A stretch of DNA of 64,000 nucleotides from positions 62,001-126,000 of the forward strand of contig PNMM01000002.1 of the NCBI GenBank assembly GCA_013823625.1. Reading direction: 5' to 3'. Both the position numbers and the translations under genes were made by a program. The notes under the pieces were generated by a model. It made no database searches and was not told where the DNA came from. It was given only the letters and a program-made list of their open reading frames with translations. How positions within the stretch are numbered: position 1 is the first letter of the stretch; every line of letters begins with the position of its first letter. Positions 12,815-39,585 of the stretch are shown here, in pieces. Source of the DNA: Microbacterium sp. (GTDB lineage Bacteria; Actinomycetota; Actinomycetes; Actinomycetales; Microbacteriaceae).

Positions 12815-12841
12815 AATTATCGGCTCCCCTCGAATGTTAGC

Positions 12842-14560: not shown

Positions 14561-14678
14561 GATTCAACAGTATCTCGAGAAGATCTCGGCGAGCGTAGCT
14601 ATTGCAACTGTCGACAATCGGACCCAGATAGTCCGGCAGCTGGGGATCTCCGAATAGTCCGCCGACGAGGGCGATCAT
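14547..14678 (-). CDS. Small 43-residue protein, unknown function
   Basis: It starts MIALVGGLFGDPQLPDY and ends LLEILLNRELE. The ATG has a good CGGAG site seven bases upstream and lies 28 bases after the mfd stop codon. Its 3' end overlaps the GTG of the 572-residue membrane protein gene by 14 bases, which suggests translational coupling. It is too short for family assignment. It might instead be a leader reading frame that controls the downstream gene. Confidence 0.5.
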   Translation of the reverse strand: MIALVGGLFGDPQLPDYLGPIVDSCNSYARRDLLEILLNRELE

Positions 14679-14706
14679 GATCTTGCTCCGACTGGCGACG
14701 GCGCGA

Positions 14707-23963: not shown

Positions 23964-24809
23964 GTGAGTGACGCGTATCGCGGGCGACGTCTCGCGCTGC
24001 TCACGCAACACGGCAAAGAGCGGGTCATCGCGCCCGCGCTCGAGGGCGCGCTCGGCTGCACGGTCGAGCGCGCCCTCGGCTTCGACACCGACACCCTCGG
24101 AACCTTCACGCGCGAGGTGCCGCGCGCCGGCAGCCAGCTCGAAGCCGCGCGGCGCAAAGCCGAGCTGGCCATCGAACTGAGCGGTGCCGACATCGGCCTC
24201 GGCAGCGAGGGCTCGGTCGACCGACACCCGCAACTCGGCTTCGTCGACCGCAACGTCGAGCTCATCGTGCTCGTCGACCGCGCTCGCGGCATTGAGGTTG
24301 TCGGTGTCGCCGACGGCCCCGCGCCCTACGCTCACCTGCTGACCTCGTCGTTTGCCGAAGCATCGGTCTTCGCCGCGCGTGAGAGCTTTGTCGATCATGG
24401 CTTCGCCGTGCGCCCCGACAACCCCGACGACCCCCGGGTGCGAAAAGACATCACGACGACGGATGCCCTGCGTGAGGCCTTCGCCGCCGCCCAGGCCGAG
24501 TCGGCCACGGGTTCGGTGTTCGTCGAGCTCGACCTTCGCGCGCACCGCAACCCGCGCCGCATGGCGCGCATCGCCGAGGCCGCCGCCGACCTCGCGGCGA
24601 AACTCGCCTCGACGTGCCCCGAGTGCGAGGGTCCCGGATTCTGGGTCATCGAGCGACTGCCCGGGATGCCCTGCCGTGACTGTGGCCTCGCGACCGACAT
24701 GACTCTCGCCGACGTCGACGGTTGCCCGAGCTGTGGTCACCGCGCCACGCGACTGCGTGACGCGAGCGCCGGGGCCGACCCGATGTGGTGCGACTACTGC
24801 AACCCCTAG
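23964..24809 (+). CDS. DUF6671 family protein with C-terminal zinc-ribbon-like cysteines
   Basis: A 281-residue soluble protein. The N-terminal part (ALLTQHGKERVIAPALE, ELAIELSGADIGLGSEGS) matches what I know of DUF6671. The last 80 residues hold CPECEGPGFWVIERLPGMPCRDCG and CPSCGHRATRL with CDYC at the end, four Cys pairs that could bind two zinc ions. The function is unknown. It starts 11 bases after the aminotransferase stop, so the two are probably co-transcribed, and it converges with the sortase gene with a four-base overlap. Confidence 0.8.
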   Translation: MSDAYRGRRLALLTQHGKERVIAPALEGALGCTVERALGFDTDTLGTFTREVPRAGSQLEAARRKAELAIELSGADIGLGSEGSVDRHPQLGFVDRNVELIVLVDRARGIEVVGVADGPAPYAHLLTSSFAEASVFAARESFVDHGFAVRPDNPDDPRVRKDITTTDALREAFAAAQAESATGSVFVELDLRAHRNPRRMARIAEAAADLAAKLASTCPECEGPGFWVIERLPGMPCRDCGLATDMTLADVDGCPSCGHRATRLRDASAGADPMWCDYCNP

Positions 24810-25471
24810 CTGGCCGCGGCCAGAGTGAGCCCCACGAGCCGCAGTCGGCCGTCACTATCCCAATAGCACGTCTGCAGAATCACGTCGGCCGCCATGCCTG
24901 CGGTCGCCCCGCGGGCGGAGTCTCCGACGCGAGCGTCGCGAGCCTCCGTCACGACGTACGTACCCTCCAGGTCGGTGCCCGCGAGCGTGACGGTCTCACC
25001 AATCATCATGTCGAGCACGATGCCGCCGCCACAGTAGTTGTGGGCTCCGACGATCGGTGCCGCGCCACCAAGGTTCATGCGCACCCACAAACACGCGTCG
25101 ACCTCGGCCTGGTACCCGACGGTGTCTATCGTGGTGTGCCACAGGTCGCCGTCGAGAGGGGCAGCAGCGGGCTCGAGCGGTGCAGCGGGTTCCGCTATCG
25201 CGGCTGCCGGAGCCTCGGGCAACGGCGCGAGTGCGGGCACCTCATCGACCGCGGCTGGCGCGGGCGCTGACGATGCGTGCGGCCCGGGCGCGACCAAGAC
25301 CCCGGGGGTGGATGCCGCGGCCACCGTATCGCTCGACACCGGCGCAGCATCCGCCAGCGAAACCAGGCCCGCGCCGACGGCAACGATCGCGGCCACACCA
25401 AGAGTGCGCGCCCACACAACCCGACGATGCGCGCGGTGAACCGCGCGGAACGGATCGTCGGTCGCGTTCAC
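24806..25471 (-). CDS. Sortase-like transpeptidase
   Basis: The 221-residue protein has an N-terminal signal anchor (residues 23-42), an Ala/Pro-rich linker of about 65 residues and a C-terminal sortase-type domain. The putative triad is His144 in IVGAHNYCGG, Cys202 in VILQTCYW, and Arg209 or Arg211 in GRLRLVGL, a compact version of the sortase GH/TC/R pattern. Cys127 and Cys147 may pair. Sortases join sorting-signal proteins to the cell wall. The gene starts three bases after the pstB stop (TAA-ACC-GTG), so it is the last gene of the phosphate cluster. No LPxTG-like motif was seen in the window, so its substrate is unclear. Confidence 0.72.
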   Translation of the reverse strand: MNATDDPFRAVHRAHRRVVWARTLGVAAIVAVGAGLVSLADAAPVSSDTVAAASTPGVLVAPGPHASSAPAPAAVDEVPALAPLPEAPAAAIAEPAAPLEPAAAPLDGDLWHTTIDTVGYQAEVDACLWVRMNLGGAAPIVGAHNYCGGGIVLDMMIGETVTLAGTDLEGTYVVTEARDARVGDSARGATAGMAADVILQTCYWDSDGRLRLVGLTLAAAS

Positions 25472-25474
25472 GGT

Positions 25475-26446
25475 TTACCCGAATCGACCGTTGACGTAGT
25501 CGAAGGTGCGTGAATCGGTGGGGCTATCGAACATGACTCCCGTGTCGCCCTGTTCGACGATCATTCCGGGGGTGCCTTGCGCCGCCAAGAAGAACGCACA
25601 GTTGTCAGAAACCCGCTGAGCTTGCTGCATGTTGTGGGTCACGATGACGATCGTGACCTCTTTCGCCAGCTCGAGCATTGTCTCTTCAATGACACGAGTC
25701 GATGTGGGGTCGAGGGCCGAACACGGCTCGTCCATGAGCAGCACGCGTGGCCGAACAGCGAGCGAGCGAGCGATGCAGAGGCGCTGCTGTTGGCCGCCCG
25801 ACAAGCCACCACCGGGCTGCCGCAGTCGGTCGCGCACCTCTTTCCAGAGCCCCGCCTTGATCAAGCTCGACTCAACGAGGGCGTCTTTGACGTCTCTGCT
25901 GGCCTTGATGCCCGTGAGCTTGAGGCCGGCAATGACATTGTCGTAGATCGACATTGCCGGAAACGGGTTGGGCTTCTGGAACACCATGCCGATGTCACGG
26001 CGGGCCTGCGTGAGCCGACGAGTGGCGCCGTAGATGTCTTCACCATCGAGCAGCACCTCACCGGCAAGCGATGCCGACGGCACCATTTCGTGCATGCGGT
26101 TCAGGATGCGCAAGAACGTCGATTTGCCACAACCCGAAGGCCCGATGAGTGCCGTGATTTTGCCCGCCTCCATCGTGAGATCGACGCGGTCGAGCACCTT
26201 GCGCTCTCCAAACCACGCCGAAATCTGGCGGGCCTCAAGTTCGGCCAGCTCCGCCGCGGGCGCGAGAATGCGCTCGAGATCGTCGCCCACAACCGGGTTC
26301 GGCATGGTGAGCTCACGCGTCGAGGTCGGCGAATCGACGTCGAGCGGTTTCGTCTCTTCGGGAACGTCGCTCTGCTGGTGCTCGTCGATCGGCTCGGTCG
26401 ATTCGGTCACGGCGTCATCAGTCATGGTCTGGGGGCTGTCGGTCAT
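25475..26446 (-). CDS. pstB: Phosphate ABC transporter ATP-binding protein PstB
   Basis: PstB powers phosphate import through PstCA. The 323-residue protein has Walker [10 protein letters not shown] near residue 105, [13 protein letters not shown] and [15 protein letters not shown] (both typical of PstB), signature [16 protein letters not shown], Walker [14 protein letters not shown] and switch His in VTHNMQQA. An acidic N-terminal extension of about 70 residues is unusual. The ATG at 26446 has GGAG six bases upstream, which supports the long form. It lies far from pstCA but in the same unbroken gene run. Confidence 0.95.
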
Positions 26447-26459
26447 GGTCGTCTCCGAA

Positions 26460-27437
26460 CTAGAGCAGGTTGGGGAAGAGAGTCATGGCGCTGCTCGCGG
26501 TAGCTGCGCCGAGGGCCAAGACCACGGGGGTCGCAATGATCCAGGTTTGCCAAATGCCCCAGCGCGATCGCACCCACCGAATCACGACGATGGCGGCGAA
26601 GAGCAACTGAGCCCAGAACAGTGTCGGAATCAGGCCCGACACGTCGGTGACCATGGCAAACTCCGAGGGCTCGAGAACTTCTTTGGTGAAGACCGGCGAC
26701 GGCGCCTCGAACGCTTCACCGACGAGGTCGGCATCGATGTGCAGAGCACCGGAAGGAACGAACGGGATTCCGTCAGCCGTAATGAGCTCGAGTCGGCCCT
26801 CTCCCTCATCGAGCGGAATCGGCAAGAGTTCGCCCTCCCGGCGCAGCCCGATGACCTCGAAGGTTGACGCTCCTTGCCCGGTAATGACCGTGATCTCGTC
26901 ACCGGGGCGGAGCAAGCTCAGCGAGCCGAACGGCCCACCGAAGGTCGCTTGACGCCCCATGATCACGCTCGTGCCAACCTGCCCGGGCATGACAGTGTCG
27001 CGCCGGTGACCAGGTCCGAGAGTCAGCACCTCGGCCGTCGTTCCTTGTACGAAGACCTCGCTGAGAGACACGGTGTCGGTCTCGATAACGAGCACACCGA
27101 TCGGTGTGCCTTCCGGCACCAAGACACCGTCGACGTCGAGTTGGCCAAGCGGGGCCGTTGCCAGGGCCAAACTCGATCGCAATTCTTGGTAGAGCGTGAA
27201 CTGCGAGCGCGCGTGATGCAGCGAGCCCACGAGCGAGACGTGGGCGACGAATCCGAGCAGAATGGCCGACAACACAAGCCAGACAACGCCAACCCACCAC
27301 CGCACCTCGCGAGGGGTCGGTGCAGGTTTGCGGGGCCGAATCCGCTTCGGGCGCTTGCGCAACCAAAACGGCAGCGGAGGTCGAGCCGCCGGGCTGGGCG
27401 GAGCGACCGTGCGCTCGTCGTCAGAAACTGCGGTCAT
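26460..27437 (-). CDS. Sortase-fold membrane protein lacking the catalytic His and Cys
   Basis: A 325-residue protein with a basic cytoplasmic N-terminus (residues 1-45), a transmembrane helix at 47-68, a class C/E-like sortase domain at about 95-240 and two C-terminal helices (about 268-287, 297-318). Sortase landmarks are clear: [25 protein letters not shown] and [12 protein letters not shown]. The usual GHR reads GRQ (161-163), and the usual TC reads Thr220-Ala221 in LELITADG, so transpeptidation is unlikely. It may bind rather than cut sorting substrates. It overlaps the preceding gene as ATGA and ends 13 bases before pstB. Confidence 0.75.
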
Positions 27438-28150
27438 CGAACCGAGACCGATGCCGCAGAAGCCGCGAACCAGAGAGCGATCTGGGCGCGGAAGGCGAAG
27501 ACGAGCGACACGAAGCCCAGGCTGAGTGAGCCGAGCACGGCGTAGGGCCACCACACGACTGATGCCGGGGTGGGCGCGGGGCCACTGACGATCGTGACGA
27601 CGTTGTTGGCCACCGCGCACGAGGCCCAGCCTGTCGCCTCGAGAGAGTACTGCCCCACCAAGGTTTCATTAGGAATGCGGAATCGCGCTGCGAAACCCGT
27701 TGGAGCATCGACCGTGAAACTCCCGATCACCACTGCTCCGGGATACATCACAATCTGAACCTTCTCGCCGCGCGTGAAGTCAGACGACCGCGTGATGATC
27801 CACTCGCCGGCAATCAGCCGTTCGCGGTCGACCGCCAGCACACGAGCATCGTCTTTCGGCGTTGCCGCGGGAGTGGGCGAACCATCAGCGTTCGACGCCG
27901 CGCACGTCGGCGCTCCGGCGACGACATCATCGGGGGTCTCACCTGACGCGCCCGTCCCCCCGCCCCCACGTGTTCCCGTGCTGCTCGGCGACGGGCTCGG
28001 CGACGAAGTCGCCGGAACCACCACCGTGATGGGGCCATCGGTCGGGGGTGGCGTCGCAGCCGTGGCCGCGACACTTGCCGTGGTGACGAGCGCGAGCGCG
28101 AGCGCGACCGTGGCCAGCGACAAGGCCGTCGTTACCGAGGTGACCGTCAC
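27434..28150 (-). CDS. Secreted, C-terminally anchored Ig-like domain protein
   Basis: The 238-residue protein has a signal peptide (to about residue 32), a Pro/Ser/Thr/Gly-rich linker to about 95, a beta-rich domain (VLAVDRERLIAGEWIITRSSDF to NNVVTIVSG) and a C-terminal transmembrane helix at about 203-225. The beta domain looks like a bacterial Ig-like fold, with one Cys in the linker and one in the domain. It overlaps both neighbours by four bases, which places it firmly in the DUF916-sortase module. It is probably a structural or adaptor part of the surface assembly. Confidence 0.7.
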   Translation of the reverse strand: MTVTSVTTALSLATVALALALVTTASVAATAATPPPTDGPITVVVPATSSPSPSPSSTGTRGGGGTGASGETPDDVVAGAPTCAASNADGSPTPAATPKDDARVLAVDRERLIAGEWIITRSSDFTRGEKVQIVMYPGAVVIGSFTVDAPTGFAARFRIPNETLVGQYSLEATGWASCAVANNVVTIVSGPAPTPASVVWWPYAVLGSLSLGFVSLVFAFRAQIALWFAASAASVSVR

Positions 28151-29337
28151 TTTTCGTTCGCCTTGTTTGCCGACGCCAACGCCTCTTCGCGCGCTGCTGC
28201 CGCCGCTTCATCGATCGCGGCGTACATCTGCTCGCGCGTATTCGCCACGTAGCGAACAGCGAGGAACGCGACGCCTCCGATGATCACGACGAGCAAGAGG
28301 AGCGTCCACGAAACAGTAAGCGTGGTTGCTCCCGCCGTCACCGGGATGAAGTCGACACGATCGTCGAGGTTCGAGGCGTCAATGGGAGGAGCTGCGGTGG
28401 GGTCGAGCTCTGCGGGGGCATCCGTCGGTTCAGGAGTTGCGGTCTCGACCGCCGTCTCATTGTCTTCGACGGCGGGAGCCTCGGCCGACCCCAGCGGGCC
28501 GGGGGTGACCGTGATGGTGGAGAAGGCCAGGAACAAGGCGGCGATCTGCGGAACGTCTGCTGAGACGCCGACGGTCTGTCTCGGCAAGAGGTCGACGAGT
28601 GGCTGAGGCGTGATGGTCGCCAGGGGAATGCCAAACGGGCCGGTGATCTGCACGTCTTGCACGACGTCCATGCGCACGTTGCCCGTGTTGCGCACGGAGT
28701 AGTCGAGCGTGAGCCGACCAAAGGCGAAGGGGTTGAGTTCGGGGGTAAAGGTCGTCGTGATGCCCGAGACTTCGGCTGACGCTGCGACGTCGCCCGAGAC
28801 GCGAAGGTAGACCCGAGCGCCGACCCGTTGTTCGAGGCTGACGGTCGTGCCGTCGTCATCGGCCGTGGTCGTGATCGAGGCGATGATTCCCGCCACGTGG
28901 TCGCCTGGGGTGGCGTCAGACGGAATCAGAAGATTGAAGGGGATGGTGCTCGCCTGGCCGGGCTCGAGAGTGACCGACTCAACATCCATGGTGATCCACG
29001 AACCCATATCGACGGGGGGCTCGTTGCTCGGCAGAAGGCCGAATGCTCCGGTCTCAACATCGTTGGTCGCATCGGTGGCATAGATCGCGAACTCGGCGGC
29101 AGTAGTGCCGCGATTAGAGACGACTACATAGTCAACGACTTGCGTACCCGGGTCAGTCGAGTACTCGAACTGAGTGCGCGTGCCGTTGACGGTGTTGGCG
29201 GGTTGAACACTCCAGGTGACGTCTCCCTCGGCTTGCTGCAGGGGGCCAGTAGGAGCGGCGGCGGCGCCGATTCCCACGAGCGCGAGCGCGAGGCTCACAA
29301 CGACAGTGGCAGAGGCATAAGCGGCGGGGAAACGCAT
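28147..29337 (-). CDS. DUF916-like (WxL-interacting) membrane-anchored protein
   Basis: The 396-residue protein has a signal peptide, two tandem beta-sandwich domains (about 30-165 and 170-270), an acidic Pro/Thr linker, a transmembrane helix near 340-362 and a charged cytoplasmic tail of about 30 residues. DUF916-type features include VDYVVVSNRGTTAAEFAIYATDA, ITMDVESVTLEPGQASTIPFNLLIPSDATPGDHVAGI-like sequence and RVGARVYLRVSG. In Firmicutes such proteins hold WxL proteins on peptidoglycan, and the gene upstream here encodes a WxL-like protein. ATG 29337 is chosen over a TTG four codons earlier. Confidence 0.75.
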   Translation of the reverse strand: MRFPAAYASATVVVSLALALVGIGAAAAPTGPLQQAEGDVTWSVQPANTVNGTRTQFEYSTDPGTQVVDYVVVSNRGTTAAEFAIYATDATNDVETGAFGLLPSNEPPVDMGSWITMDVESVTLEPGQASTIPFNLLIPSDATPGDHVAGIIASITTTADDDGTTVSLEQRVGARVYLRVSGDVAASAEVSGITTTFTPELNPFAFGRLTLDYSVRNTGNVRMDVVQDVQITGPFGIPLATITPQPLVDLLPRQTVGVSADVPQIAALFLAFSTITVTPGPLGSAEAPAVEDNETAVETATPEPTDAPAELDPTAAPPIDASNLDDRVDFIPVTAGATTLTVSWTLLLLVVIIGGVAFLAVRYVANTREQMYAAIDEAAAAAREEALASANKANEK

Positions 29338-29431
29338 TGCATGAACCAATCATCAGAAAGCGTGCAACAGGTTGACGGAAGAGAAACACGGGGGTGCATG
29401 CCGGATAACCGAAGAGCTCCGGATGCCCGTA

Positions 29432-29465
29432 GCGGGCTGAGCGGTCACGAATCCGCCCAGCCCGC
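29432..29465 (-). terminator. Hairpin between the WxL-like and DUF916-like genes
   Basis: Arms GCGGGCTGAGCGG and CCGCCCAGCCCGC pair at 12 of 13 positions around an eight-base loop, 18 bases past the WxL-like gene stop. In the middle of a gene run it may act as a partial terminator or protect the upstream mRNA. Confidence 0.6.
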
Positions 29466-29482
29466 CACGGTGGTGCAGGTGC

Positions 29483-30769
29483 TTAGGTGAGGGTCACCGT
29501 CAGCAGCGCCGAGTAGTTGCCGGGCGCGGTGTTGAGCGGGGCCCGCAGCTGCAGCAGGGCCGACGCGTTGGTGGTGGTCGGCTGCGGGTCAGCAGCCGAC
29601 GGGGTGCCCGTCGCCCACACGCGCGCAACCTTGAGGCCGCCGGTCGCCGACGACGACGAGGCAACAACAGCACCGCCCGTTCCCACACCAGTCACGGTGG
29701 GGGTCCAGCCGAGGTAGCTCGAGCTGAGCACGAGCCCACCCGGAGCGGTGAAGTCGCTCACCTGACCGGTCAGCGAGAACGCCGCAGCGCCAACCTGACG
29801 CGAGTCGTCGACCACAGCGGTAACGGTGCCCGAGGCGTTAAGCGTTCCGCCCGAGTTGACGACCGAGCCGAGGTTCGCCGTGAGCGACGAAGCCGTCAGC
29901 ACGAGAGCGCCGCCACCAACACCGTTGGCAACCTGCACGGTGATGTCACCCGTGACGGTCGCGGGGGCCGGCTGGCTGCCGACCGTGACCGATGCGGTGC
30001 CCGAGGTTGACCCAGTGAATGCAGCGGTGTTGGTCGGCACGAACTCTGCCGTGTAGGTGTGCGCACCGTTCGACACGCCCGTGAGGGTCGTGCTGACCGT
30101 GCCCGCAGCGTTCACGACGGTCGCGACCGTGGTCGCACCCTCACGGAACACCACGTTGCCCGCGGTGCCCGAGGGGGTGACCGTCGCCGCGAGGGTGACG
30201 TTCGTGCCCGAGGCGCTCGCGGTGAGCGAGGTGTTGGTCGCGGTGGCCGCAACCGGAATCGACCAGGCACCCGTGGTGGCGTTGTAGGTCAGCGTCAGCG
30301 ACAGGTACTTGTCGTTGACGAGGTCGAGCGAGGTGCTCGAGGCGTGGAAGTAGTAGCGGTACTCGAACGTGCCCGAGGTGAGCGTCGACAGCGCAGCGTT
30401 GTTGAGCTGCTTGTTGCTGACGAAGTTGTTCGTGGCGATGACCGAGCGGTCCATCAAGGCAGGGTTGCCGTCAAGACCGTTGGTGCCGGCCGTAACCGCC
30501 ATCGAGGTGGTGCGCAGGTTGGAGATGTTGCCCACCAGCACGCCGTTCTGGAAGATCTGGCTCGTGCTGGCAGCACGGAACCCGACCGGCGCGCCGACGC
30601 TCGTGGCGACGCTCTGGAGGAAGAACTGGTCCGACACGTTTCCGCTCGTGGGCGAAATCGTGATCGTTCCGGCGATCTGGTCGGCGACGGCGGGCTGAGC
30701 GGCGCTCAGTCCCACCACGACCAGCGCACTGGCGAGGGCCACCGAAGCGGCTTTCTTCATGAGTTTCAT
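29483..30769 (-). CDS. Secreted protein with Ig-like domain and WxL-like C-terminal domain
   Basis: A 428-residue secreted protein. Signal peptide (KKAASVALASALVVVGL...VADQ), an N-terminal beta-rich domain to about 180, an Ig-like repeat at about 185-275 (TVTPSGTAGNVVFREGATTVATVV, typical Big_3-type pattern), and a C-terminal domain from about 280 resembling WxL: TAVVDDSRQVGAAAFSLTGQ, SSYLGWTP and the ending APGNYSALLTVTLT. Classic WxL domains have Trp-x-Leu near that ending; here it reads VTL. There is no membrane anchor, so wall attachment would depend on the DUF916-like partner. I chose ATG 30769; the open frame upstream is not protein-like. Confidence 0.72.
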   Translation of the reverse strand: MKLMKKAASVALASALVVVGLSAAQPAVADQIAGTITISPTSGNVSDQFFLQSVATSVGAPVGFRAASTSQIFQNGVLVGNISNLRTTSMAVTAGTNGLDGNPALMDRSVIATNNFVSNKQLNNAALSTLTSGTFEYRYYFHASSTSLDLVNDKYLSLTLTYNATTGAWSIPVAATATNTSLTASASGTNVTLAATVTPSGTAGNVVFREGATTVATVVNAAGTVSTTLTGVSNGAHTYTAEFVPTNTAAFTGSTSGTASVTVGSQPAPATVTGDITVQVANGVGGGALVLTASSLTANLGSVVNSGGTLNASGTVTAVVDDSRQVGAAAFSLTGQVSDFTAPGGLVLSSSYLGWTPTVTGVGTGGAVVASSSSATGGLKVARVWATGTPSAADPQPTTTNASALLQLRAPLNTAPGNYSALLTVTLT

Positions 30770-30815
30770 GGTGTCTCGTGACTCTTTCTTTGTGTGATGT
30801 GAGTGTCGAGCGGGA

Positions 30816-31895
30816 TTAGTTGACGTAGCCGCGCTGCGTCGTGGTGCTGCCGCAGAGCGAGCCGATCGTGGCGAAGCCGTACTGCTTGATCTGCGTCTGC
30901 GCTGCACAGACGGCCGAGGTCGAACCGGCGAACGCCGCACGAATGGCGAGGTCGTTGGCCGACGGGCTGCTCGTGGTGAGCGCACGGGTCTCGACAACGT
31001 TGTAAACCAGACGGCTCGGCAGGAAGTCCGGGTTCGTCGTGATCGTCGTTCCGTCGTAGATGATCGGCTTGACGGTGTCGATGCTTCCGAGCACGGCCTG
31101 GCCGCGACGCTCAACAACGGCCGTGGGCAGCGAGCGGTTGTTGCTCTGCGCGAGCCACTGACCGACCGAGAACGGAACGATGTCGCCATCGCGCGTCAGG
31201 AAGGTGCCGTCGTGCTCTTGCACCGTGTTGCCCAAGTCAGTTGCGCGACCACCAGCGGTCAGCGCAGCCTCGGTGGTGCCGAGAACGCTCACCCAGTAGG
31301 TGCGAGTTCCGGAGTTCGCCTGCGGCAGCAGCGGACGGATGGTGACCGTGTTGCCGGCGCTGTCGATGAACGAGGTGACGGTGCCGAGGTAGATGTTGCG
31401 CAGCGTGAACAAGTTGGTGGCCTGGCCTGCAGCACCCAGCGCGACATCCTTCGGGAAGTCGCTCGAGATGTTCATGGCAATGGTGACCGCGTCACGCGCG
31501 AACGGGATGTAGGTCAACTCGGTGCCGGCTTCGCTGCGCAGCGCCGAAGCACGAGCAAAGTCGAGGGTGCCGACCGGAAGCGTCGTGCCCGCGTAGGCGA
31601 TGCCGCGAATCGACGAGCTGAGTGCGCGGATGCCCGCGGTCGAGCCAATCGGACGGCTGAACGTCGTGCCGTCAACGGTGATGCTGCTGCCCGCGGGCAC
31701 GGCATCCCAGTTTCCGAGGTTCGTGACAACGCTCGCGACGCCGCTCATGACGTCTTGCGTCGTGTCGGAGCCAGTACCGTTGAGGTCCTTCGGGCCGGCG
31801 GGGTCGGCGAATGCCGGGGCTGCCGTACCGAAGGTGAGCGCCGCGACGGCGAGCGCCGCCACCACGCCGAAGCGCAGCTTGGTGTGCTTGTGCAT
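30816..31895 (-). CDS. Secreted PstS-like substrate-binding protein
   Basis: The 359-residue protein has a signal peptide (RFGVVAALAVAALTFGTAAPAFA) followed by a periplasmic-binding-protein fold of the phosphate type. LNGTGSDTTQDVMSGVA corresponds to the PstS phosphate-loop region GxGST, and ELTYIPFARDAVTIAM and LFTLRNIYLGTVTSF match PstS strands. It has no lipobox and no membrane anchor, so it would be released or held by partners. C-terminal cysteines (SAVCAAQT, SLCGSTT) may form a disulfide. AGAAGG precedes the ATG. It may bind phosphate, but ligand residues cannot be confirmed by eye. Confidence 0.75.
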   Translation of the reverse strand: MHKHTKLRFGVVAALAVAALTFGTAAPAFADPAGPKDLNGTGSDTTQDVMSGVASVVTNLGNWDAVPAGSSITVDGTTFSRPIGSTAGIRALSSSIRGIAYAGTTLPVGTLDFARASALRSEAGTELTYIPFARDAVTIAMNISSDFPKDVALGAAGQATNLFTLRNIYLGTVTSFIDSAGNTVTIRPLLPQANSGTRTYWVSVLGTTEAALTAGGRATDLGNTVQEHDGTFLTRDGDIVPFSVGQWLAQSNNRSLPTAVVERRGQAVLGSIDTVKPIIYDGTTITTNPDFLPSRLVYNVVETRALTTSSPSANDLAIRAAFAGSTSAVCAAQTQIKQYGFATIGSLCGSTTTQRGYVN

Positions 31896-31951
31896 CAGGT
31901 TCCAACCTTCTTTTGGTAACTTTCTCCGGTAGTTCAGTCCCTTTGGACTAG

Positions 31952-31983
31952 CCCCTCACTGTGCTTTCCGGTTCAGTGGGGGG
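31952..31983 (-). terminator. Hairpin after the 894-residue gene (distal)
   Basis: CCCCTCACTG and CAGTGGGGGG pair over ten positions (one G-T) with a 12-base loop. It follows a second hairpin at 31988-32014, so two stem-loops stand between the two binding-protein genes. Confidence 0.6.
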
Positions 31984-31987
31984 TTTC

Positions 31988-32014
31988 CTTTCGGGTCGGA
32001 GCGGTGCCCGAAAG
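31988..32014 (-). terminator. Hairpin after the 894-residue gene (proximal)
   Basis: A perfect 8-bp stem, CTTTCGGG and CCCGAAAG, with an 11-base loop lies 16 bases past the stop codon. Confidence 0.6.
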
Positions 32015-32029
32015 AAGCTGTGTGGGGGG

Positions 32030-34714
32030 TTAGAAGAACAGACCTCCGCCGCGCAAGATGCCCGGGGCAAAGACGAAGCCGAGTAGACCGACCACGAGCG
32101 ACACCGCGAGACCGCCGTTGAGCACCCCCGATGTCGATTCGGGCGTGCGGTCTTCTGACAATTCATCGACACCGGGAGTGAGCTCGGGGTCAACTCCGGG
32201 CTCGACGCCCGTGCCGCCTTCGTCGTCAAGAGTCGGGAAGTTCGATGAAGAGTTCGAGTTCGAGTTCGAACTTGGCGTGGGTGAGGGCGCCTTGGGCGGG
32301 GTCCACGACTGAATGCGGCTGGTTGCCGCCGCCGCTTTCGTCGACAACTCGGCCGTCAACGGAACGTATCCGACCGGGAGTTGGCCAAGCGCGGTTCCCT
32401 GCACTTGGCCCGTCGTCGTGATTTGCTGCAGCATGCCCGTCATGGTGGTTCGGGATGCTGCGGTCGACTTCGTCAGGTTCACTCCCGCGTAGGTCACCAT
32501 CGTGAGGGGGTACGCGTTTCCCGTCACCTTCGCGGGGTCGACCTGCAAGACGGCATCGAGCGACGTGGGCGAGAGTGCCGCAAGTGCCGCCGTCATCGTC
32601 TCGGCCGTGCTCGAAACCGGAGTCGTCGAGTTGGAGGGCGTGAGCTGGGCGGTCGTCAAGCCATACCGCGCCGCATTGGCGGAGTCGGTGACAGCGATCA
32701 TGAACCGCGCCCCGGCGTCTTGCACACCCGTGCTGATCCAGGCGCCGAAGTTACCGGCGTCATTGATGCGGTTGGCATCCCACAACACCCGCGAGTTGGG
32801 GTCGCCACGGAACGCCTGACGCGCCGCCGCGAGGTAGTCAATGGCGTACGGGGCGAACTGAATCGTGTCGTAACGGCTCGTACCGTTCGTCTGCGAGAGC
32901 TCGAACGGCAGCAAGCTGCCGTCATCCTTGGGGAAGGTGTCGAGAACGGTGGTGCTGATCTGCAGCGGGCTGCCGTCGATGTTTACTTGACCCACCTGAC
33001 GTGTCGTCGGCGTGGGCAGGTAGTTCAGGTTCGCGTCGTAGTACCAGGGGATGAGGTTCGTCGCGGTCCGCGGCAGGTAGTAGGGATTGACCGTCATGCC
33101 CCAGGGGTCGGGGGTTCCGTTAAGGAAGGCCACGGCATCCTGGTCGGCCAGAATCCATCGCCAGACCTGCTTGATGCCGTCGGCGGCAGCCGGCCCCGGG
33201 AGAACGATGCTCGGCGTCTGCTGATCGAAGTTTTGCCAGTTGCTGGGGTTTGCCGCGCGAAAGTCGGGGTCGGTCGACCAGTAGTTGTAGCTGCGTGCAG
33301 CGGCCGACAAGTGCGCGATGGCTTGCGTCGGCGTCGCGGTCGACTGCGGCACGGTGAACGAGTACGACTGCGTCAAGAGCTTGGCCATGAGGCGCGGAGT
33401 GATGACCAGACTTTCTTGACGACCGTTGGCAAAGTCTGCGTTGTACGCGATGACCATGCTCGAGACCGCGATGGGAACGTACTCAAGCGCCGTTTTGGTG
33501 AAGAGCGTTCGCTCGTCGACGGTCGGCAGTTCTGCGCTCGTCACCGGATACCCGCTGTAGATGAGCTCAGGCGAGCCCGCCCGCTCTTCGAGCAATTGGG
33601 CCCGTGCCACCCCGTCGGGGTTCGTTGCAAAGCTAAACGTGCTGCCGACGTTCTGGCACAGCGAGGGCTGCCACGAACTCATGGCCGAGATCATGAATTG
33701 CGAACCAGACACCCGAAACTCGGGGGCCCCCGACGGGCACGACACCGCTGTGGGCGTGAAGTCAAGCGGCACCACAATGCGGTTGTCGAAGTAATCACAC
33801 TTCGGGTTGACCGGGCTTCCGCCTTGAATCGTGGCGGCTTGGCCATAGGTGTATGAAACGCCAAAGCGGTTGGTTAGGTCGCTGCAGTCGGTCGGGTCGG
33901 AACCATTCTCGCCGCCGCCGAACTTCGTTCCGCGAGGCACGATGACAAGCCAGCAGCGCAATTGCCCCGCGTCGCCACACCCCAAGTGCGGCGACTGGCT
34001 CGACGACTGGGTCTCGAAGTCGAAATAGCCCGTGCCATCCGCACCGATGCGCGCGAGCGGTACCTCGTTGGTCGTCGAGGGGCTGAAGTAGCTCAGAATC
34101 GGGTTGAAGGTGCGCCCCGCGCTGTCGAGGTTTGCTTTCGCCGTCACGACCGCGCCGCTGACGGTGACGAACGGGTTGTCGTAGGCGGTGGCGGGGCTCG
34201 GGGTGTAGTCCTTCGTCGACACGCGGAAGGCGTTGTCGAAGTAGACGGCATTGCCGAGCACCGTGGGCAATCGGCCACCCCACTGGCAGGTCTCGACGAA
34301 GTCTGCCGCATTGGGGTCGTCACCCCAGCACTGCATGGCCTGAACGAAGTTGGCGCCGTTCTGAACGCCCTCAGAAATCGCCGACCGCGTGCCCGCGAAG
34401 CCCGCAACGCTCACCCGGATCGCTTGGTCGCCGATATCGGTCGTTTGGCTCACCGTCACCGTGATGTTGCGCATCTCGGAGTAGTGCGGGCTCGCGGGGT
34501 CGCGCGTGGGCTGAAAGCTCGACGCCGACGAGGTGTCGCCATCCCACGCGATCGTGATCGGCGTGGGCGCTGCCGCCGCGGCCGGTGCAGCGGGGGCTCC
34601 CGCCACGAGGCCCCCAAAGCTCACGGCTGCAATCGTCGCGAAAGCAACGCGGCCCAACGCAACGCGTCGGCGCGCACGCTGAGAAGGCTGTGAGGTGGTT
34701 GACACGGTCGACAC
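32030..34714 (-). CDS. Large surface protein with PstS-like segments and C-terminal membrane anchor
   Basis: An 894-residue protein with a signal peptide (to about residue 55), a long extracytoplasmic region with eight or more cysteines, a Ser/Asn/Pro/Asp-rich stalk at about 800-860 and a final transmembrane helix (GGLAVSLVVGLLGFVFAPGIL). VPIAVSSMVIAYN followed by LVITPRLMAKLLTQSY lines up with the PstS segment IPIVAGGTAFMYN...LSGETVAKIFTG, so part of it is probably a phosphate-binding-protein fold. The GTG at 34714 has GAGGA eight bases upstream and lies just after the pstS stop. Its size and anchor suggest an outward-reaching binding protein; this is inference. Confidence 0.75.
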   Translation of the reverse strand: MSTVSTTSQPSQRARRRVALGRVAFATIAAVSFGGLVAGAPAAPAAAAAPTPITIAWDGDTSSASSFQPTRDPASPHYSEMRNITVTVSQTTDIGDQAIRVSVAGFAGTRSAISEGVQNGANFVQAMQCWGDDPNAADFVETCQWGGRLPTVLGNAVYFDNAFRVSTKDYTPSPATAYDNPFVTVSGAVVTAKANLDSAGRTFNPILSYFSPSTTNEVPLARIGADGTGYFDFETQSSSQSPHLGCGDAGQLRCWLVIVPRGTKFGGGENGSDPTDCSDLTNRFGVSYTYGQAATIQGGSPVNPKCDYFDNRIVVPLDFTPTAVSCPSGAPEFRVSGSQFMISAMSSWQPSLCQNVGSTFSFATNPDGVARAQLLEERAGSPELIYSGYPVTSAELPTVDERTLFTKTALEYVPIAVSSMVIAYNADFANGRQESLVITPRLMAKLLTQSYSFTVPQSTATPTQAIAHLSAAARSYNYWSTDPDFRAANPSNWQNFDQQTPSIVLPGPAAADGIKQVWRWILADQDAVAFLNGTPDPWGMTVNPYYLPRTATNLIPWYYDANLNYLPTPTTRQVGQVNIDGSPLQISTTVLDTFPKDDGSLLPFELSQTNGTSRYDTIQFAPYAIDYLAAARQAFRGDPNSRVLWDANRINDAGNFGAWISTGVQDAGARFMIAVTDSANAARYGLTTAQLTPSNSTTPVSSTAETMTAALAALSPTSLDAVLQVDPAKVTGNAYPLTMVTYAGVNLTKSTAASRTTMTGMLQQITTTGQVQGTALGQLPVGYVPLTAELSTKAAAATSRIQSWTPPKAPSPTPSSNSNSNSSSNFPTLDDEGGTGVEPGVDPELTPGVDELSEDRTPESTSGVLNGGLAVSLVVGLLGFVFAPGILRGGGLFF

Positions 34715-34715
34715 G

Positions 34716-36458
34716 CTAAGAGTCCTCACCCGGCGCAGTCGCACGGCCGAATTTTGTAAAGCGGGCGGGTAGGTGAATTTTTGGCATCGATGGTCGTCGC
34801 GTGAACGGCGAGCCACGAGGCTGTGTGGCGGCGCGCGGAAGAGAACCGACCGGTGCGGCAAGAGCGAGGGCAGTTCGACGACGAGCGATGACCGGCGGCA
34901 ACAAAACTGCCGACAAGGCCACGAGAGTGGCCAGAATCATGAGCACCAGCACGTGGGGTTCGATCCCCCGCGAATCGAGCGTGAGCGGCGTTCCGGTCAC
35001 GATCTTGTTGCCGCCGCCGCCGAGTCCAACAGTCTCGCCATCACCGACCGACCCAAGACCATCGCTGTTGTCACCGTCTTCGCCCGACTCGCCTCCACCG
35101 GTGCCGCTTGTTCCCTGGTTCGTGGTGCCACTACCGACGGTGGGTGTTCCCGAGGCGCCACCCGTACCGGTCAAGCACTGATCGGGGCCTTTCTTGTCAC
35201 AGGCCTGAGGCTGCGGTGCCTCATTCGCGAGTTTGTTCGTGCCGTCTGGCGAGAACGTCGGGTTATTGCACGTCGAGACGTTCTTGTTTTGCGGGTCCCC
35301 GCCGGGGATCAACTGCGCCTGTTCAAGGCCTCCTTGAACCAGGTTGATCGGCAAGGGCGAGTAGCCAAGAACTTCGGCCTGCTGCTGCCCTTCGCACAAG
35401 AAGTACGACACAAAATCGGCGAGCGTGAGCCCCTTATCGAGCGTGAAGTTTCCTTCGATCGCCGTCGGCACGATGATGTACGAGTACGACGACAACGGAT
35501 ACACCCGGGGGTCTTTGCTGTTGTAGACCGGGCTCAGGTTGGCGGTGAGGTACTCCTGCGAGTTCGGGTCGTTGTTGATCACGGCCGACAGCAGCGACAC
35601 CGCAACATTCGAGGCCGTCGGCTCGGTGTAGAAGCCAGCGGCGTTGAGAAGTTTCGCCACGGGGAAGCGGGCGTTGATCGCGTACGAGGCCTCAACGTAG
35701 GTAATGGCCCCGACCGAACTGTTCTTCGCTACCGTGCTGGCAACCTGATTCGACCCTTGCTGGGCCAAGAAAGCCGAGCCGGGAATGACGGGGTAGTTCG
35801 AGGTGATTCCGCAGTTCGACCGACCCGCTTTGGCGCAATAGGCGTTCCAGATCGCCGGATGCTGAGCACGCATCCATGCCGTCAATTGGGCCGTCGTACC
35901 CGAGCCATCAGAACGCACGACAGGAACGATCGTCGTGGCCGGGAGCGCCAGTTTGGGGTTGTCGGCGGCAATTGCCGGATCGTTCCACTTGGTGATGACT
36001 CCGGTGAAGATCTTCGCGACGGTCTCGCCCGAGAGGCGAAGGTTGGTAACCCGCTGCCCTCCGATGACGAGGTTGTACATGAACGCGGTTCCACCGGCGA
36101 CAATGGGGATGTACGCGAACTGACGAGCGGGCCGCGGGTCAGGGCTGTCGCTGTTCGCGAGAGCGTAGGGAATCTCTGAGACGCCGAAGTCGGTCGTGCC
36201 TTGAGCAAACAACTGTCGGCCCGCCGACGAGCCCTGGTCGTTGTACGAGATCTTCCAGCGGTAGTTGTCGAAGACGTTGCGCACCCACTGCTGCAGTGCA
36301 TTGGCCGACCACGTTGACCCGGCACCCTCAATGGGCTGGTAGACGATTCCGACCGCGCGCGCGGGCGAGGCCTGAGCCACGGCAGGCCCGAGGCCCACAC
36401 TGGCTACGAGGGCGAGGGCGATCGCGGCGCGAACGCCACGCATCCCAGGGCTAGTCAT
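34716..36458 (-). CDS. pstS: Phosphate-binding protein PstS with C-terminal transmembrane anchor
   Basis: PstS captures phosphate outside the membrane. The 580-residue protein has a signal peptide and a binding domain with IEGAGSTWSANALQQW (phosphate loop), ISYNDQGSSAGRQLFAQGTTDFGVSEIPYA, RSDGSGTTAQLTAWM and GKIT-like KIFTGVITKWNDP. After about residue 390 comes a Gly/Ser/Thr-rich stalk, a transmembrane helix near 500-520 and a basic cytoplasmic tail of about 60 residues. Usual actinobacterial PstS proteins are lipoproteins of about 370 residues; this one has no lipobox and is anchored at the other end. It overlaps pstA by eight bases. Confidence 0.92.
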   Translation of the reverse strand: MTSPGMRGVRAAIALALVASVGLGPAVAQASPARAVGIVYQPIEGAGSTWSANALQQWVRNVFDNYRWKISYNDQGSSAGRQLFAQGTTDFGVSEIPYALANSDSPDPRPARQFAYIPIVAGGTAFMYNLVIGGQRVTNLRLSGETVAKIFTGVITKWNDPAIAADNPKLALPATTIVPVVRSDGSGTTAQLTAWMRAQHPAIWNAYCAKAGRSNCGITSNYPVIPGSAFLAQQGSNQVASTVAKNSSVGAITYVEASYAINARFPVAKLLNAAGFYTEPTASNVAVSLLSAVINNDPNSQEYLTANLSPVYNSKDPRVYPLSSYSYIIVPTAIEGNFTLDKGLTLADFVSYFLCEGQQQAEVLGYSPLPINLVQGGLEQAQLIPGGDPQNKNVSTCNNPTFSPDGTNKLANEAPQPQACDKKGPDQCLTGTGGASGTPTVGSGTTNQGTSGTGGGESGEDGDNSDGLGSVGDGETVGLGGGGNKIVTGTPLTLDSRGIEPHVLVLMILATLVALSAVLLPPVIARRRTALALAAPVGSLPRAATQPRGSPFTRRPSMPKIHLPARFTKFGRATAPGEDS

Positions 36459-37794
36459 GAGGGGCGACCCTTCGTCGTGCGGGCATTGGTATGAGCCGCT
36501 TGAGTCGTTCGAACGGGCTCACCGCCTGAGGCGGAGTGATTCCCAGCTCGCGAGCACGGAATCGGTAGTCGTCGATGCGCGACGCCTGCGTGCGGGCTCG
36601 CAGTTGGCGCGCGCTGAGCTGGCCCGGGCCGCGTCCGCCGATGGCACGGGCGATCACGAACAAGATCACGACGAGTGCCATGAGCACGACCGCGGTGCCG
36701 AATCCACGAGCGATGAAGTTGAGCTCGGGCGACTTAATGAACGTGAAGGTGGTCAGCGGCAACGACGTCATGGGGCCGCTGAAGGGGTTGAAGTTGAAGA
36801 ACGTTGTGGCACCGGCGGTAAGAAGAACGGGCGAGGTCTCACCAATTCCCCGAGCTGTTCCCAGGATCACGGCAGTCGTGAGCCCCGAGCGGGCCGTCGG
36901 AATCGTGACCGTCCAGACGGTGCGCCACGTGGATGCTCCCAGAGCGCGCGCCGCCTCCTTCAGGCTCGACGGCACGAGGCGCAAGACGACATCGGCCGAC
37001 CGCACGACGATCGGCAACATCATCACGGTGATGGCACACGCGGCGGCAAAGCCCGAGCGAGTAAGGCCGAACTGCACGATGATCGCGTACACAAAGAGGC
37101 CAGCGACGATTGACGGCAAGGCAGTCATGGCTTCGACCACCGTGCGGACGAATCGCGAGAACCGACCCGGGTACTCGGTGAGAAACACGGCCGTGAGAAT
37201 GCCCAGCGGAACCGTGAGGATGAGCGCGATCGTGATCATGATCAGCGTGCCCACGATGGCATGCGCCACGCCGCCGCGATCGAGGCCATCAAGGGGGCCC
37301 GCGTTACTCATGTCTTCGAGGTAGAAGTTCGGAAAGAACGTCGGAATCCCGAGAGGTTCGAGCCCTCGCAGGGTCGTGTAGACGACGACCGAGAAGAGCG
37401 CCAGCAGGAGCAAGAAGGCCAGCGAATGCATCACGACGCTGGCCAGGCGATCGCGCACGGTCGGACGGTTCTCATCGAACGCCGTCAAGATGCCAAAGAA
37501 CAACAAGAAGAAGCCGTAGGAGATGAAAACGAAGCCCAACTCGCCCTCGAGCGGCAGCGCATAGAAGAACAACCACGAGGTCAATGCGACCGCCGCGAGT
37601 GCTGATCCGATCAGTCGAATGACGTCGATCGAGCGAATAGTCGCGGTCGAACGGCGCAGCTCGGGTGCCGAGGTGGGCGTCGGCGTGTCTGCGCGCGTCC
37701 AGGTGCGAGGAGAACGAGCTGCCGGTTCTCCGTCACCGGCGTCGCGCTCGTCATCACTACCGTGCGCATTCGGGCGTTCGATTACGTCGGTCAC
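36451..37794 (-). CDS. pstA: Phosphate ABC transporter permease PstA
   Basis: The 447-residue permease ends with the usual six-helix core, including the EAA loop LKEAARALGASTWRTVWTVTIPTARSGL and GTARGIGETSPVLL. It carries an unusual N-terminal extension of about 150 residues: a charged, Pro/Thr-rich segment and two extra transmembrane helices (IGSALAAVALTSWLFFYAL, LGFVFISYGFFLLFFGILTA). The GTG at 37794 has GAGGGAG eight bases upstream, which supports the long form. It lies 25 bases behind pstC and overlaps pstS. Confidence 0.94.
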   Translation of the reverse strand: MTDVIERPNAHGSDDERDAGDGEPAARSPRTWTRADTPTPTSAPELRRSTATIRSIDVIRLIGSALAAVALTSWLFFYALPLEGELGFVFISYGFFLLFFGILTAFDENRPTVRDRLASVVMHSLAFLLLLALFSVVVYTTLRGLEPLGIPTFFPNFYLEDMSNAGPLDGLDRGGVAHAIVGTLIMITIALILTVPLGILTAVFLTEYPGRFSRFVRTVVEAMTALPSIVAGLFVYAIIVQFGLTRSGFAAACAITVMMLPIVVRSADVVLRLVPSSLKEAARALGASTWRTVWTVTIPTARSGLTTAVILGTARGIGETSPVLLTAGATTFFNFNPFSGPMTSLPLTTFTFIKSPELNFIARGFGTAVVLMALVVILFVIARAIGGRGPGQLSARQLRARTQASRIDDYRFRARELGITPPQAVSPFERLKRLIPMPARRRVAPHD

Positions 37795-37819
37795 GAGCAG
37801 TGCTCCCTCGTCGCGGCCA

Positions 37820-38836
37820 TTAGTCGCCCACGCTTCCGGATCGACTGCGCGCCACGATGGTCGAGGCGCCGAAGTTGATGATGAGCGTGACGATGAACAA
37901 AGCGAGACCGGCCGCCATGAGCGCGGAAATCTCGAAGGCAGAGGCTTCGTTGTAGCGCAAGGCGATGAGCGCCGAGATGGAGTTGCCACCCTTTTCGAGA
38001 ATCTGCGGCTGGATGACAAACACCGGCGAAATGATGAGGAAAACCGCGATGGTCTCGCCGAGTGACCGGCCCAGGCCCAGCATCGTTCCGCCGATGATTC
38101 CGCCTCGCCCGTAGGGGATCACGACGCTCGTGATCATGCCCCACTTGGTGGCTCCGAGCGCAAGCGCACCCTCCCGCTCTCCGAGCGGGGCCTGCTGGAA
38201 GACCTCGCGCATGATCGAGCTCGTGATCGGAGCGACCATGAGGGCCACGACGATGCCGGCAATGAAGGTCGACGCCGAGAAGATCGTCGGGGTCGCGAGG
38301 GGGTCGTTGGGGTCAAAGCCCGCGACCGCGAACGGCGGAAACCAAGGGCCCATGTAGGTGGCCAGCCATTGCGAGAGCGGAAGGATGATCGGCGACAGGA
38401 AGAAGAAGCCCCACAGCCCGTACACAATGCTGGGAATTGCCGCCATGAGGTCAACCGTCGTGATCAGGAACGGCTTGAGGCGCTGCGGTGCGTACTCACT
38501 GATGTAGAGAGCCGTGCCGAACGAGAGCGGCAGCGCAAAGAAGATGGCCGTGAGCGCGATGAAGACGGTGCCCAAGAAGACGGCAGCGATGCCGAACTTG
38601 CCCGAGTTCGGGTCCCACGCCTGTTCGGTGACGAACGCCGGCCCCGCAAACTGGATCGCCTCAAACCCGCGGATGAGCAAGAAGAGCCCGACAAGGGTCA
38701 TGACGGTGACGACGATCGTGCCGCCGCTGCGCGCTATCCACCGGAACACAGCATCCGGTCGATCGACGACCGATGAGAGCGTTCGCGGCCCGTCATTCAC
38801 GCCGTCAATGACGATGCGGTCAGTCCGCGGCTCCAC
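37820..38836 (-). CDS. pstC: Phosphate ABC transporter permease PstC
   Basis: The 338-residue permease has six helices, TALYISEYAPQRLKPFLITTVDLMAAIPSIVYG-type sequence, and the EAA loop EGALALGATKWGMITSVVIPYGRGGIIGG followed by GLGRSLGETIAVFLI. It pairs with PstA to form the phosphate channel. Its start overlaps the stop of the preceding small gene by 17 bases. Confidence 0.95.
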   Translation of the reverse strand: MEPRTDRIVIDGVNDGPRTLSSVVDRPDAVFRWIARSGGTIVVTVMTLVGLFLLIRGFEAIQFAGPAFVTEQAWDPNSGKFGIAAVFLGTVFIALTAIFFALPLSFGTALYISEYAPQRLKPFLITTVDLMAAIPSIVYGLWGFFFLSPIILPLSQWLATYMGPWFPPFAVAGFDPNDPLATPTIFSASTFIAGIVVALMVAPITSSIMREVFQQAPLGEREGALALGATKWGMITSVVIPYGRGGIIGGTMLGLGRSLGETIAVFLIISPVFVIQPQILEKGGNSISALIALRYNEASAFEISALMAAGLALFIVTLIINFGASTIVARSRSGSVGD

Positions 38837-39311
38837 GGCGACCTCCCATGAGAGTCGGGTCGGTCAATCGAGAGCCGGCGAGCAAGACGGCAACCGCGAT
38901 CGATCGCGCTGCGAGTTCTGCGGAGTGGCGACGATCACGGTCGGTGACGTACCAGCGCGCGCACGTCATGACCGGCTCGCCATCAACCGATGCGTACCAG
39001 CCGTAGACGCCACGCGCCGGCTCGCTGACAGGCTCAATCACCAGGCTTGATTCCGCGGTCACAACGCGCTCGGCGTGTGTACGCGCTTGCTCGAACGTCG
39101 CGTGAACGCCCACCCCTCGCGCAAGCTCGCGATTGTTGGCCGACACCAAGTGCCACACGGCACTGCCCTCGCCCGGTGCGCCGGGCGTAGCAGCAGGCAG
39201 CGACCGCGAGTCGGCGTTGAGAACGCTCGATGCGTGGGCGATCCAGGGCTTCAGCTTGGGGCTCTCGTCGTCGAGAAACCGCACGAAGACCACACGGGGT
39301 CCAAGCGACAT
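38820..39311 (-). CDS. Hypothetical protein at the head of the phosphate cluster, DUF1508-like segment
   Basis: A soluble protein of about 163 residues from ATG 39311 (MSLGPRVVFVRFLDDESP). The segment AVWHLVSANNRELARGVGVHATFEQARTHAERVV resembles the YegP/DUF1508 repeat (WRLKAANGEIIA pattern), but the match is loose. The open frame continues upstream, though that part is Cys/Arg-rich and shadow-like. The overlap with pstC suggests it is the first gene of the operon; a role in phosphate sensing or transport is only guilt by association. Confidence 0.55.
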   Translation of the reverse strand: MSLGPRVVFVRFLDDESPKLKPWIAHASSVLNADSRSLPAATPGAPGEGSAVWHLVSANNRELARGVGVHATFEQARTHAERVVTAESSLVIEPVSEPARGVYGWYASVDGEPVMTCARWYVTDRDRRHSAELAARSIAVAVLLAGSRLTDPTLMGGRRGAAD

Positions 39312-39585
39312 GGGGCGAACTTTCTTGCTCGGGTGCGACCTACAGCAGCGTCGACGATCGGGTGCTGCGTGGCCCTGAGTCAAAGATCTGATGCCGAACG
39401 CGCACAGTCGACAACACGTACAACGACACTCGGCAAGGTGAACAGTAGGTATCGACGCTCGCGCCTCGCGGTCGTCGTGATCCACTGGGGTATCGCCAGC
39501 CATCGGCGACTGTCGAGCATGCGTGTGCCCGTTGTTTGCGCGGCCGTCGCGATCAGTTCACGTGAATACCCGACCATCGCAGACC

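Follow-up and report, generated by a model that had tools for sequence, protein, structure and literature searches.

This analysis concerns a run of twelve genes in Microbacterium sp. that combines the components of a Pst-type importer with genes for cell-surface proteins. It lies in the window, i.e., the whole 64,000-nucleotide stretch analysed (G000:C2:62001-126000; G, C and L numbers denote genomes, contigs and loci), which belongs to a 2.45 Mb genome of four contigs. The twelve minus-strand open reading frames (ORFs), all of them present where the initial annotation had placed them, make one tight run from position 39311 to 24806 in the order hypN, pstC, pstA, pstS1, p894, pstS2, a WxL-like/immunoglobulin (Ig) protein gene, a DUF916 gene, igl, a sortase homologue, pstB and a gene for a small protein. 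On the called starts, adjacent genes overlap or are 1-158 bp apart, and some of the gaps would close with longer starts. The features are as follows.

39437..39454, minus strand: possible weak PHO box, CGATACC-N4-GTTCACC; one perfect unit and one degenerate unit
38820..39311, minus strand: hypN, hypothetical protein, 163 amino acids; no transmembrane (TM) segment found; overlaps pstC by 17 nt
37820..38836, minus strand: pstC permease; TIGR02138, 257 bits, cut-off 196
36451..37794, minus strand: pstA permease; TIGR00974 above cut-off
34716..36443, minus strand: pstS1; PF12849, E 3e-39; phosphate-binding domain with a nearly intact pocket
32030..34714, minus strand: p894, large PstS-fold protein of 894 residues; degenerate pocket, six invariant cysteines, C-terminal TM helix
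30816..31895, minus strand: pstS2, secreted PstS-like protein; PF12849, E 1e-8; altered pocket
29483..30769, minus strand: secreted WxL-like/Ig protein; N-terminal domain, Big_3_5 Ig domain, C-terminal WxL-like domain
28147..29337, minus strand: DUF916 / WxLIP_PGBD protein; PF06030, 27.5 bits against a cut-off of 27.3; C-terminal TM helix
27434..28150, minus strand: igl, secreted protein with a C-terminal TM helix; no match in Pfam
26460..27275, minus strand: srtX, pseudosortase; PF04203, E 3e-9; three hydrophobic helices; longer starts possible
25475..26446, minus strand: pstB ATPase; TIGR00972, E 5e-101, 337 bits, slightly below the cut-off of 343
24806..25471, minus strand: small secreted protein with a sortase-like His-Cys-Arg pattern; rare accessory gene

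Conservation, distribution and genomic site

There is strong sequence evidence that the importer and the surface genes form a joint unit. The marker gene of this system is p894. In a scan of named bacterial and archaeal genomes 423 stretches were matched, 394 of them encoding a relative. The best 80 of these were studied; adding the window and nine further loci from relatives, and leaving out six contigs fetched twice (L044, L053, L060, L081, L082, L102), gives 84 distinct loci. All seven core genes are present in 61 of the 84: 53 by gene calling and eight by tblastn (L047, L049, L065, L076, L086, L091, L094, L096), the core genes lacking in the latter being gaps of the simple gene caller. In every one of these 61 the order pstC-pstA-pstS1-p894-pstS2-pseudosortase-pstB is identical, and a one-off arrangement is thereby rejected. 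The comparison of gene order in related genomes, which the initial annotation had proposed, hence bears out its view that the arrangement is not due to chance; its view of the run as a mixture of a Pst importer with surface proteins is likewise supported. Among the remaining 23 loci, 22 run into a contig end and one, L079, does not; in L079 (by tblastn too) and in L073, which is at a contig end, the WxL gene comes next after p894, and no pstS2 can be recognised. Wherever a locus is long enough to show its neighbours, p894 is accompanied by its own pstC, pstA and pstB.

The carriers include Microbacteriaceae, Cellulomonadaceae, Streptomyces and Micromonosporaceae; Salinibacterium xinjiangense and Cellulomonas gelida are two of them. 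Among 60 relatives (a set that includes the window genome) p894 is matched in 12, ten of them strongly and two (G030, G058) at canonical pst loci; the nine strong loci besides the window share its core gene order, with L038 cut inside pstB. Counting the window genome in each case, the system is found in 63 of 299 Microbacteriaceae genomes, from 31 of 85 genera, and, with the smaller profile A1, in 7 of 396 genomes of a phylum sample. Several Microbacteriaceae genomes hold two p894 genes, and G020 has two system-type PstC (C37, C92). A viral scan for a phage origin of p894 gave 30 pattern matches, none encoding a relative, and this origin was rejected.

Across 50 loci the median identity of p894 is 35%, and the pairwise distances of the seven core proteins are correlated with rho of 0.38-0.79; 200 permutations for each gave no value above 0.28. 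Between the window and the close relative L032, the ratio of non-synonymous to synonymous substitution rates (dN/dS) ranges from 0.04 to 0.25 across all twelve genes, the highest value being that of the WxL/Ig protein.

The window run is flanked by a phosphoribosyl pyrophosphate (PRPP) synthetase gene (40384-41361) and a DUF6671 gene (23964-24809), with 15.6 kb between them. In three members of the same genus without p894 (G006, G013, G014) these two genes are convergent and about 50 bp apart. The run is one block at one site, and three congeners have that site empty; the DUF6671 gene was matched in 6 of 26 congeners, the window genome included, and the empty site is visible in those three only. 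A form of the system with fused Ig repeats in G022 and G025 likewise adjoins the PRPP synthetase gene.

As for the other features of the locus, hypN is an accessory gene, represented by 14 proteins in the locus set with duplicates included, and matches nothing in Pfam or NCBIfam. A promoter and terminator scan gave no promoters and 13 terminator-like sites as against 9.8 expected. Elsewhere in the window, positions 12001-16000 have a G+C content of 0.59-0.62 as against about 0.68 around them and might be foreign DNA; the ORFs of this low-G+C stretch encode proteins of 572 amino acids (12842-14560, minus strand) and 1179 amino acids (14707-18246, minus strand).

PstS-type proteins, pseudosortase and surface module

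The constant part of the system consists of three PstS-type proteins and a catalytically dead sortase. For the former, pocket positions are given in what we take to be the numbering of E. coli PstS. In 61 PstS1 sequences the equivalents of Ser38, Arg135, Ser139 and Gly140 are kept without exception, the Thr10 position is always Thr or Ser, and the Thr141 position is Thr or Ser in 51 and Ala in ten; judged by these residues PstS1 has a nearly intact phosphate pocket. Its binding domain is followed by a Cys-rich extension, a Gly-rich linker, a C-terminal TM helix and a basic tail. All 61 PstS1 proteins have a C-terminal hydrophobic helix, and a regular expression for a lipobox matches one of them.

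PstS2, which aligns with PstS1 at 89% in hhalign and matched no chain in the PDB, retains the Ser-Gly pair in all 38 sequences without Ig fusion and the Thr in 37, and its Asp56 position is Ser in 38/38, with an invariant Arg two residues earlier. An LPx[TA]G expression matched 8 of these 38; read from the sequences, the matches are the pocket motif LPQxGSGTR, and they were rejected as sorting signals.

The 60 p894 sequences align with columns 303-722 of the PstS1 profile at 97%, and with solved PstS over the C-terminal lobe only (E 8e-10); TIGR00975 matches residues 643-799 only (E 6e-7), a match that falls short of its cut-off. On an alignment that is remote, and on which the placement of the pocket residues depends, the Thr10 position is Glu, Gln or Asp in 59/60 and the RxDGSGT loop is absent, for which reason phosphate binding by p894 is unlikely. 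By these profiles p894 keeps part of the PstS fold and has lost the pocket; it also has six invariant cysteines and, in 59/60, a C-terminal hydrophobic helix.

The inactive look of the sortase homologue, remarked upon in the initial annotation, is general: measured against an active-looking sortase (L079:96-935, with TGHSG and LLTC), the catalytic His and Cys are absent from all 54 pseudosortases, with Arg throughout the His column (54/54) and, in the Cys column, Ala in 47, Gly in five and Thr in two. A profile of ten system pseudosortases, with no active member, matches the solved sortase 4d70 (E 3e-15) in an alignment that has a gap at the His, places the Arg on the next residue and stops before the Cys; the catalytic His may thus have been deleted rather than replaced. 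The match of a larger profile, which includes one active row, has an E of 2e-23 and Ala at the Cys. On these matches the pseudosortase has a sortase fold. Its dN/dS between the window and L032 is 0.05, indicative of purifying selection, and so strict a retention of a catalytically dead fold points to a binding role. The active-looking sortase of L079 (Microbacterium album) lies about 4.6 kb before the system pstC and could be a partner or a coincidence.

The small protein encoded at 24806-25471 had been annotated as a sortase, a call that was not confirmed: no sortase match was found in Pfam, NCBIfam or the PDB, and hhalign against sortase gave a probability of 14%. Its four distinct homologues, all beside the system, have invariant HNYCGG and LQTCYW motifs and in 4/4 present His, Cys and Arg in order. 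This is suggestive of a possibly new sortase-like enzyme with the His-Cys-Arg pattern as its putative catalytic residues.

The surface module varies between loci. Among the 53 gene-called loci, 18 have DUF916, 24 have a fusion of PstS2 to Ig repeats (at least 480 amino acids) and 11 have separate Ig-type proteins or neither; in L100 the DUF916 gene sits behind pstB. PF06030 finds DUF916 in eight of the 60 relatives, of which G000, G007, G031, G032 and G057 carry p894 and, among these, G031, G032 and G057 have an additional match away from the system. With DUF916 in 18/53 loci and also elsewhere in genomes without the system, the WxL/DUF916 pair is an exchangeable general module recruited by some versions. 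The DUF916 profile matches 19 of 21 members, and DUF3324 is not among the six families that these 21 match at E 0.01.

As a rule the WxL-like members show D-x-R...W-x-L...GWTP...Y-x-A-T-L-T-L-T-L, i.e., the first Trp-x-Leu only; the window copy has Phe in place of the Trp of this first motif. PF13731 matches 6 of 29 aligned members and the solved WxL domain 9i25 is matched weakly (E 0.032), while Pfam does not recognise the WxL domain of the window. The window protein's Ig domain matches Big_3_5 at E 1e-7 with 32.7 bits, below the cut-off of 35.5. We rejected the equation of every initial 'wxl' label with a WxL domain, as that profile also tracks the Ig domain; searched alone, the C-terminal WxL-like domain is found in 35 proteins from 32 loci, duplicates included. 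One of the 29 members has a CWB2 domain (E 1e-47), assigned from its letters to the congener locus L033, in whose Ig/WxL protein (L033:12793-14214) the C-terminal WxL position is apparently taken by CWB2 wall-binding repeats. This suggests that wall binding is what that position needs.

A second Pst system and PHO-box-like repeats

The window genome has a canonical operon, pstS-pstC-pstA-pstB, at G000:C3 (L012:6852-10939), whose PstS carries a lipobox and which is preceded by a good PHO box with 13/14 matches. Its existence rules out that the surface genes interrupt the sole pst operon of the cell. A GlnR-type regulator gene (L012:10973-11665) is convergent with the canonical pstB. In a PstC search of the 60 relatives, all ten genomes with a strong p894 match have at least two PstC matches: a system PstC of 56-100% identity and a canonical one of 41-43%. 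The presence of canonical PstC elsewhere in 10/10 carriers marks the run as a second system added to a housekeeping importer. In agreement with this, a PstC tree places the 68 system loci on one side of a branch opposite 20 canonical PstC, taken from relatives and with that of the window genome left out, with a support of 100/100. The three congeners with the empty site also have two PstC matches each, both canonical-like and about 4.3-4.6 kb apart, as if pst had been doubled where the surface version is missing.

The permeases of the run are of the Pst type, with TIGR02138 and TIGR00974 both above cut-off, and regular expressions find Walker A and LSGGQ in 55/55 PstB proteins and Walker B and the H-loop in 54/55 each. 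The run is not a contiguous pstSCAB with a single lipoprotein PstS.

The PHO box of Streptomyces coelicolor is described as 11-bp direct repeats with the core GTTCACC (PMC4415409; PMC7866108, as far as these sources were available). Using this Streptomyces consensus, we scored two GTTCACC units over 14 positions. At a spacing of 11, at least 11/14 matches are found ahead of 22 of 68 distinct system loci as against 7 of 355 other upstream regions from the same loci (Fisher 9e-14, a value that is too small since related loci are not independent, which counts against the reading favoured below). The spacing control is clear: at least 12/14 matches are seen in 14/68 at spacing 11, in 0/68 at spacings 7-10, 12-15 and 23, and at longer spacings once at 20, once at 21 and five times at 22. 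To the extent that such repeats report regulation, they lend good support to Pho control in part of the family, while in the window it is no more than a possibility.

Function and relation to known systems

Taking these features together, we consider it probable, if far from certain, that the run encodes an accessory, Pho-regulated Pst-type ATP-binding cassette (ABC) importer, found in Actinomycetota, which forms part of a cell-surface assembly and captures phosphate. This reading draws on the gene set and its order, the pockets and anchors, the lost sortase catalysis, the purifying selection and the PHO-box enrichment of the family, and from these we infer phosphate as the ligand, its uptake, the docking role and a wall-spanning architecture. 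Briefly, PstB, PstC and PstA would form the membrane pump. PstS1, held by its C-terminal helix rather than by a lipid, would bind phosphate and pass it to PstCA, and p894 and PstS2, with their pockets lost or changed, might act mainly as scaffold or relay. The Ig repeats, or the WxL-type and DUF916 proteins, would take the assembly into or across the peptidoglycan, with the dead sortase as a membrane-embedded dock for one surface protein. Phosphate starvation would switch the operon on in many carriers.

Several observations weigh against this reading. The Asp56 position of PstS1 is Glu in 60/61; a canonical PstC is already present in 10/10 carriers tested, so that phosphate uptake need not be the role of the run; and the window PHO box has 10/14 matches with a shuffle p of 0.17, while p 0.05 is missed by 49 of the 74 upstream regions scored, a total that includes six duplicate contigs. 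On the surface side, the window WxL-like domain, whose contact with the wall is conjectural, has neither Trp-x-Leu motif, and DUF916 occurs in 3 of 60 relatives without p894 (G036:C16, G044:C4, G049:C11). The initial annotation had proposed a phosphate-capturing assembly feeding PstCAB: the phosphate role gains support from the PstS1 pocket and the PHO-box-like repeats of the family, and transport and assembly we likewise infer. Among the findings that would speak against its proposal it had also named an intact pstCAB elsewhere together with surface genes of sporadic occurrence; the former is borne out by canonical PstC in all ten carriers tested, the latter in part, with DUF916 in 18/53 loci and 8/60 relatives.

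The foremost competitor, which we hold to be unlikely, is that the same surface-anchored importer takes up a different ligand when phosphate is short, such as phosphite, a phosphoester, some other oxyanion or a fragment of a wall glycopolymer. The Glu at the Asp56 position of PstS1, the Ser and nearby invariant Arg of PstS2 and the canonical PstC of the carriers would fit such a role. However, Asp to Glu is a mild change, PstS1 retains the remaining phosphate-binding positions in 61/61 (Thr141 being Thr or Ser in 51/61), and no gene of the run matched, in Pfam or NCBIfam, an enzyme making or using another ligand. Still less likely is a phosphate-responsive surface or adhesion structure, in which sensing or gating falls to PstCAB and the PstS-like proteins, and the attachment of cells to surfaces or hosts to the Ig/WxL proteins. 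The variability of the surface module, the peak dN/dS of 0.25 in the WxL/Ig protein and the proposal, in the available parts of PMC10599100, that Firmicutes WxL clusters join bacterial and host surfaces favour it, whereas PstB and PstS1 retain their transport and binding residues and it is the transporter part that is constant and the surface part that is exchangeable. Finally, a mobile or accidental cluster, with surface genes hitch-hiking on a redundant pst operon without joint function, would account for the patchy spread (63/299 Microbacteriaceae, 7/396 in the phylum sample), the empty site in three congeners and the DUF916 genes elsewhere, but is very improbable: the order kept in 61/61 full loci through deep divergence argues strongly against it, as do the correlated divergence, the purifying selection and the uniform loss of sortase catalysis.

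Beyond the importer that captures phosphate at the surface, we advance, as a tentative proposal that we would not yet call probable, a hitherto undescribed class of wall-spanning nutrient machine scattered in Actinomycetota: an ABC importer with an extracellular conduit of several substrate-binding-protein folds, two of which serve as scaffold or relay, the conduit being kept in the membrane by a pseudosortase used for docking and not transpeptidation. If true, this would represent a Gram-positive analogue of trans-envelope uptake, with phosphate brought through a thick wall to the pump. More generally, a widely conserved Pst importer that unites wall-binding modules, a dead sortase and three PstS-type proteins would mean that Actinomycetota can organise nutrient capture outside the membrane. 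Pseudosortases would gain a testable function, and WxL/DUF916 modules outside Firmicutes a defined partner.

In terms of known systems, the run appears to represent a hitherto undescribed, conserved Pst variant with an extracellular scaffold and a pseudosortase. No published description of a surface-linked Pst system was found in the open full-text literature, which is limited evidence as most subscription journals are outside it. The same literature yielded nothing on a phosphate ABC transporter with DUF916 or on the term pseudosortase, and only Enterococcus work joining WxL, PstS and sortase; among the matches listed, neither inactive sortases nor, for WxL with phosphate transport, this system were evident. 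Work on PstS and sortase in Streptomyces (PMC9723661, in its available parts) does not concern this system. WxL proteins are reported to be mostly or almost entirely from Firmicutes, with >91% of 938 sequences (PMC10599100, PMC9772566), and the words phosphate and Actinobacteria do not occur in the parts of these papers that were available.

The Pst importers known from Gram-positive bacteria are four-protein systems with a lipid-anchored PstS. Like canonical PstSCAB of E. coli and Streptomyces, the run has PstC, PstA, PstB and a phosphate-binding PstS, and its family has PHO-box-like repeats. Unlike it, the run encodes three PstS-type proteins instead of one, a PstS1 whose C-terminal helix replaces the lipobox, a pstB at the far end behind the surface genes and a dead sortase; its PstC is in a separate clade and coexists with canonical Pst. 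Like these carriers, mycobacteria can have two or more high-affinity Pst systems in one genome (PMC7866108); in contrast to the run, the available parts of the source make no mention of surface genes or a giant PstS-like protein, and the word sortase is absent from the text. The pseudosortase shares with sortases of classes C to E the fold over about 110-120 residues (PF04203), and matches the NCBIfam class E sortase at an E of 1e-15 but falls short of the cut-off; it differs from them in lacking the catalytic His and Cys and in having two extra C-terminal TM helices. The WxL/csc clusters of Firmicutes (CscA-D; WxL, DUF916-DUF3324), for which a surface complex in nutrient (carbon) acquisition has been proposed (PMC1534035, in its available parts), resemble the run in placing DUF916 with a C-terminal TM helix beside a large WxL-type protein. 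In contrast to these, the run has no DUF3324 match (21 members), no small WxL protein was seen in it and its WxL-type proteins have no more than one of the two motifs; its module is joined to an ABC importer, belongs to Actinomycetota and is optional.

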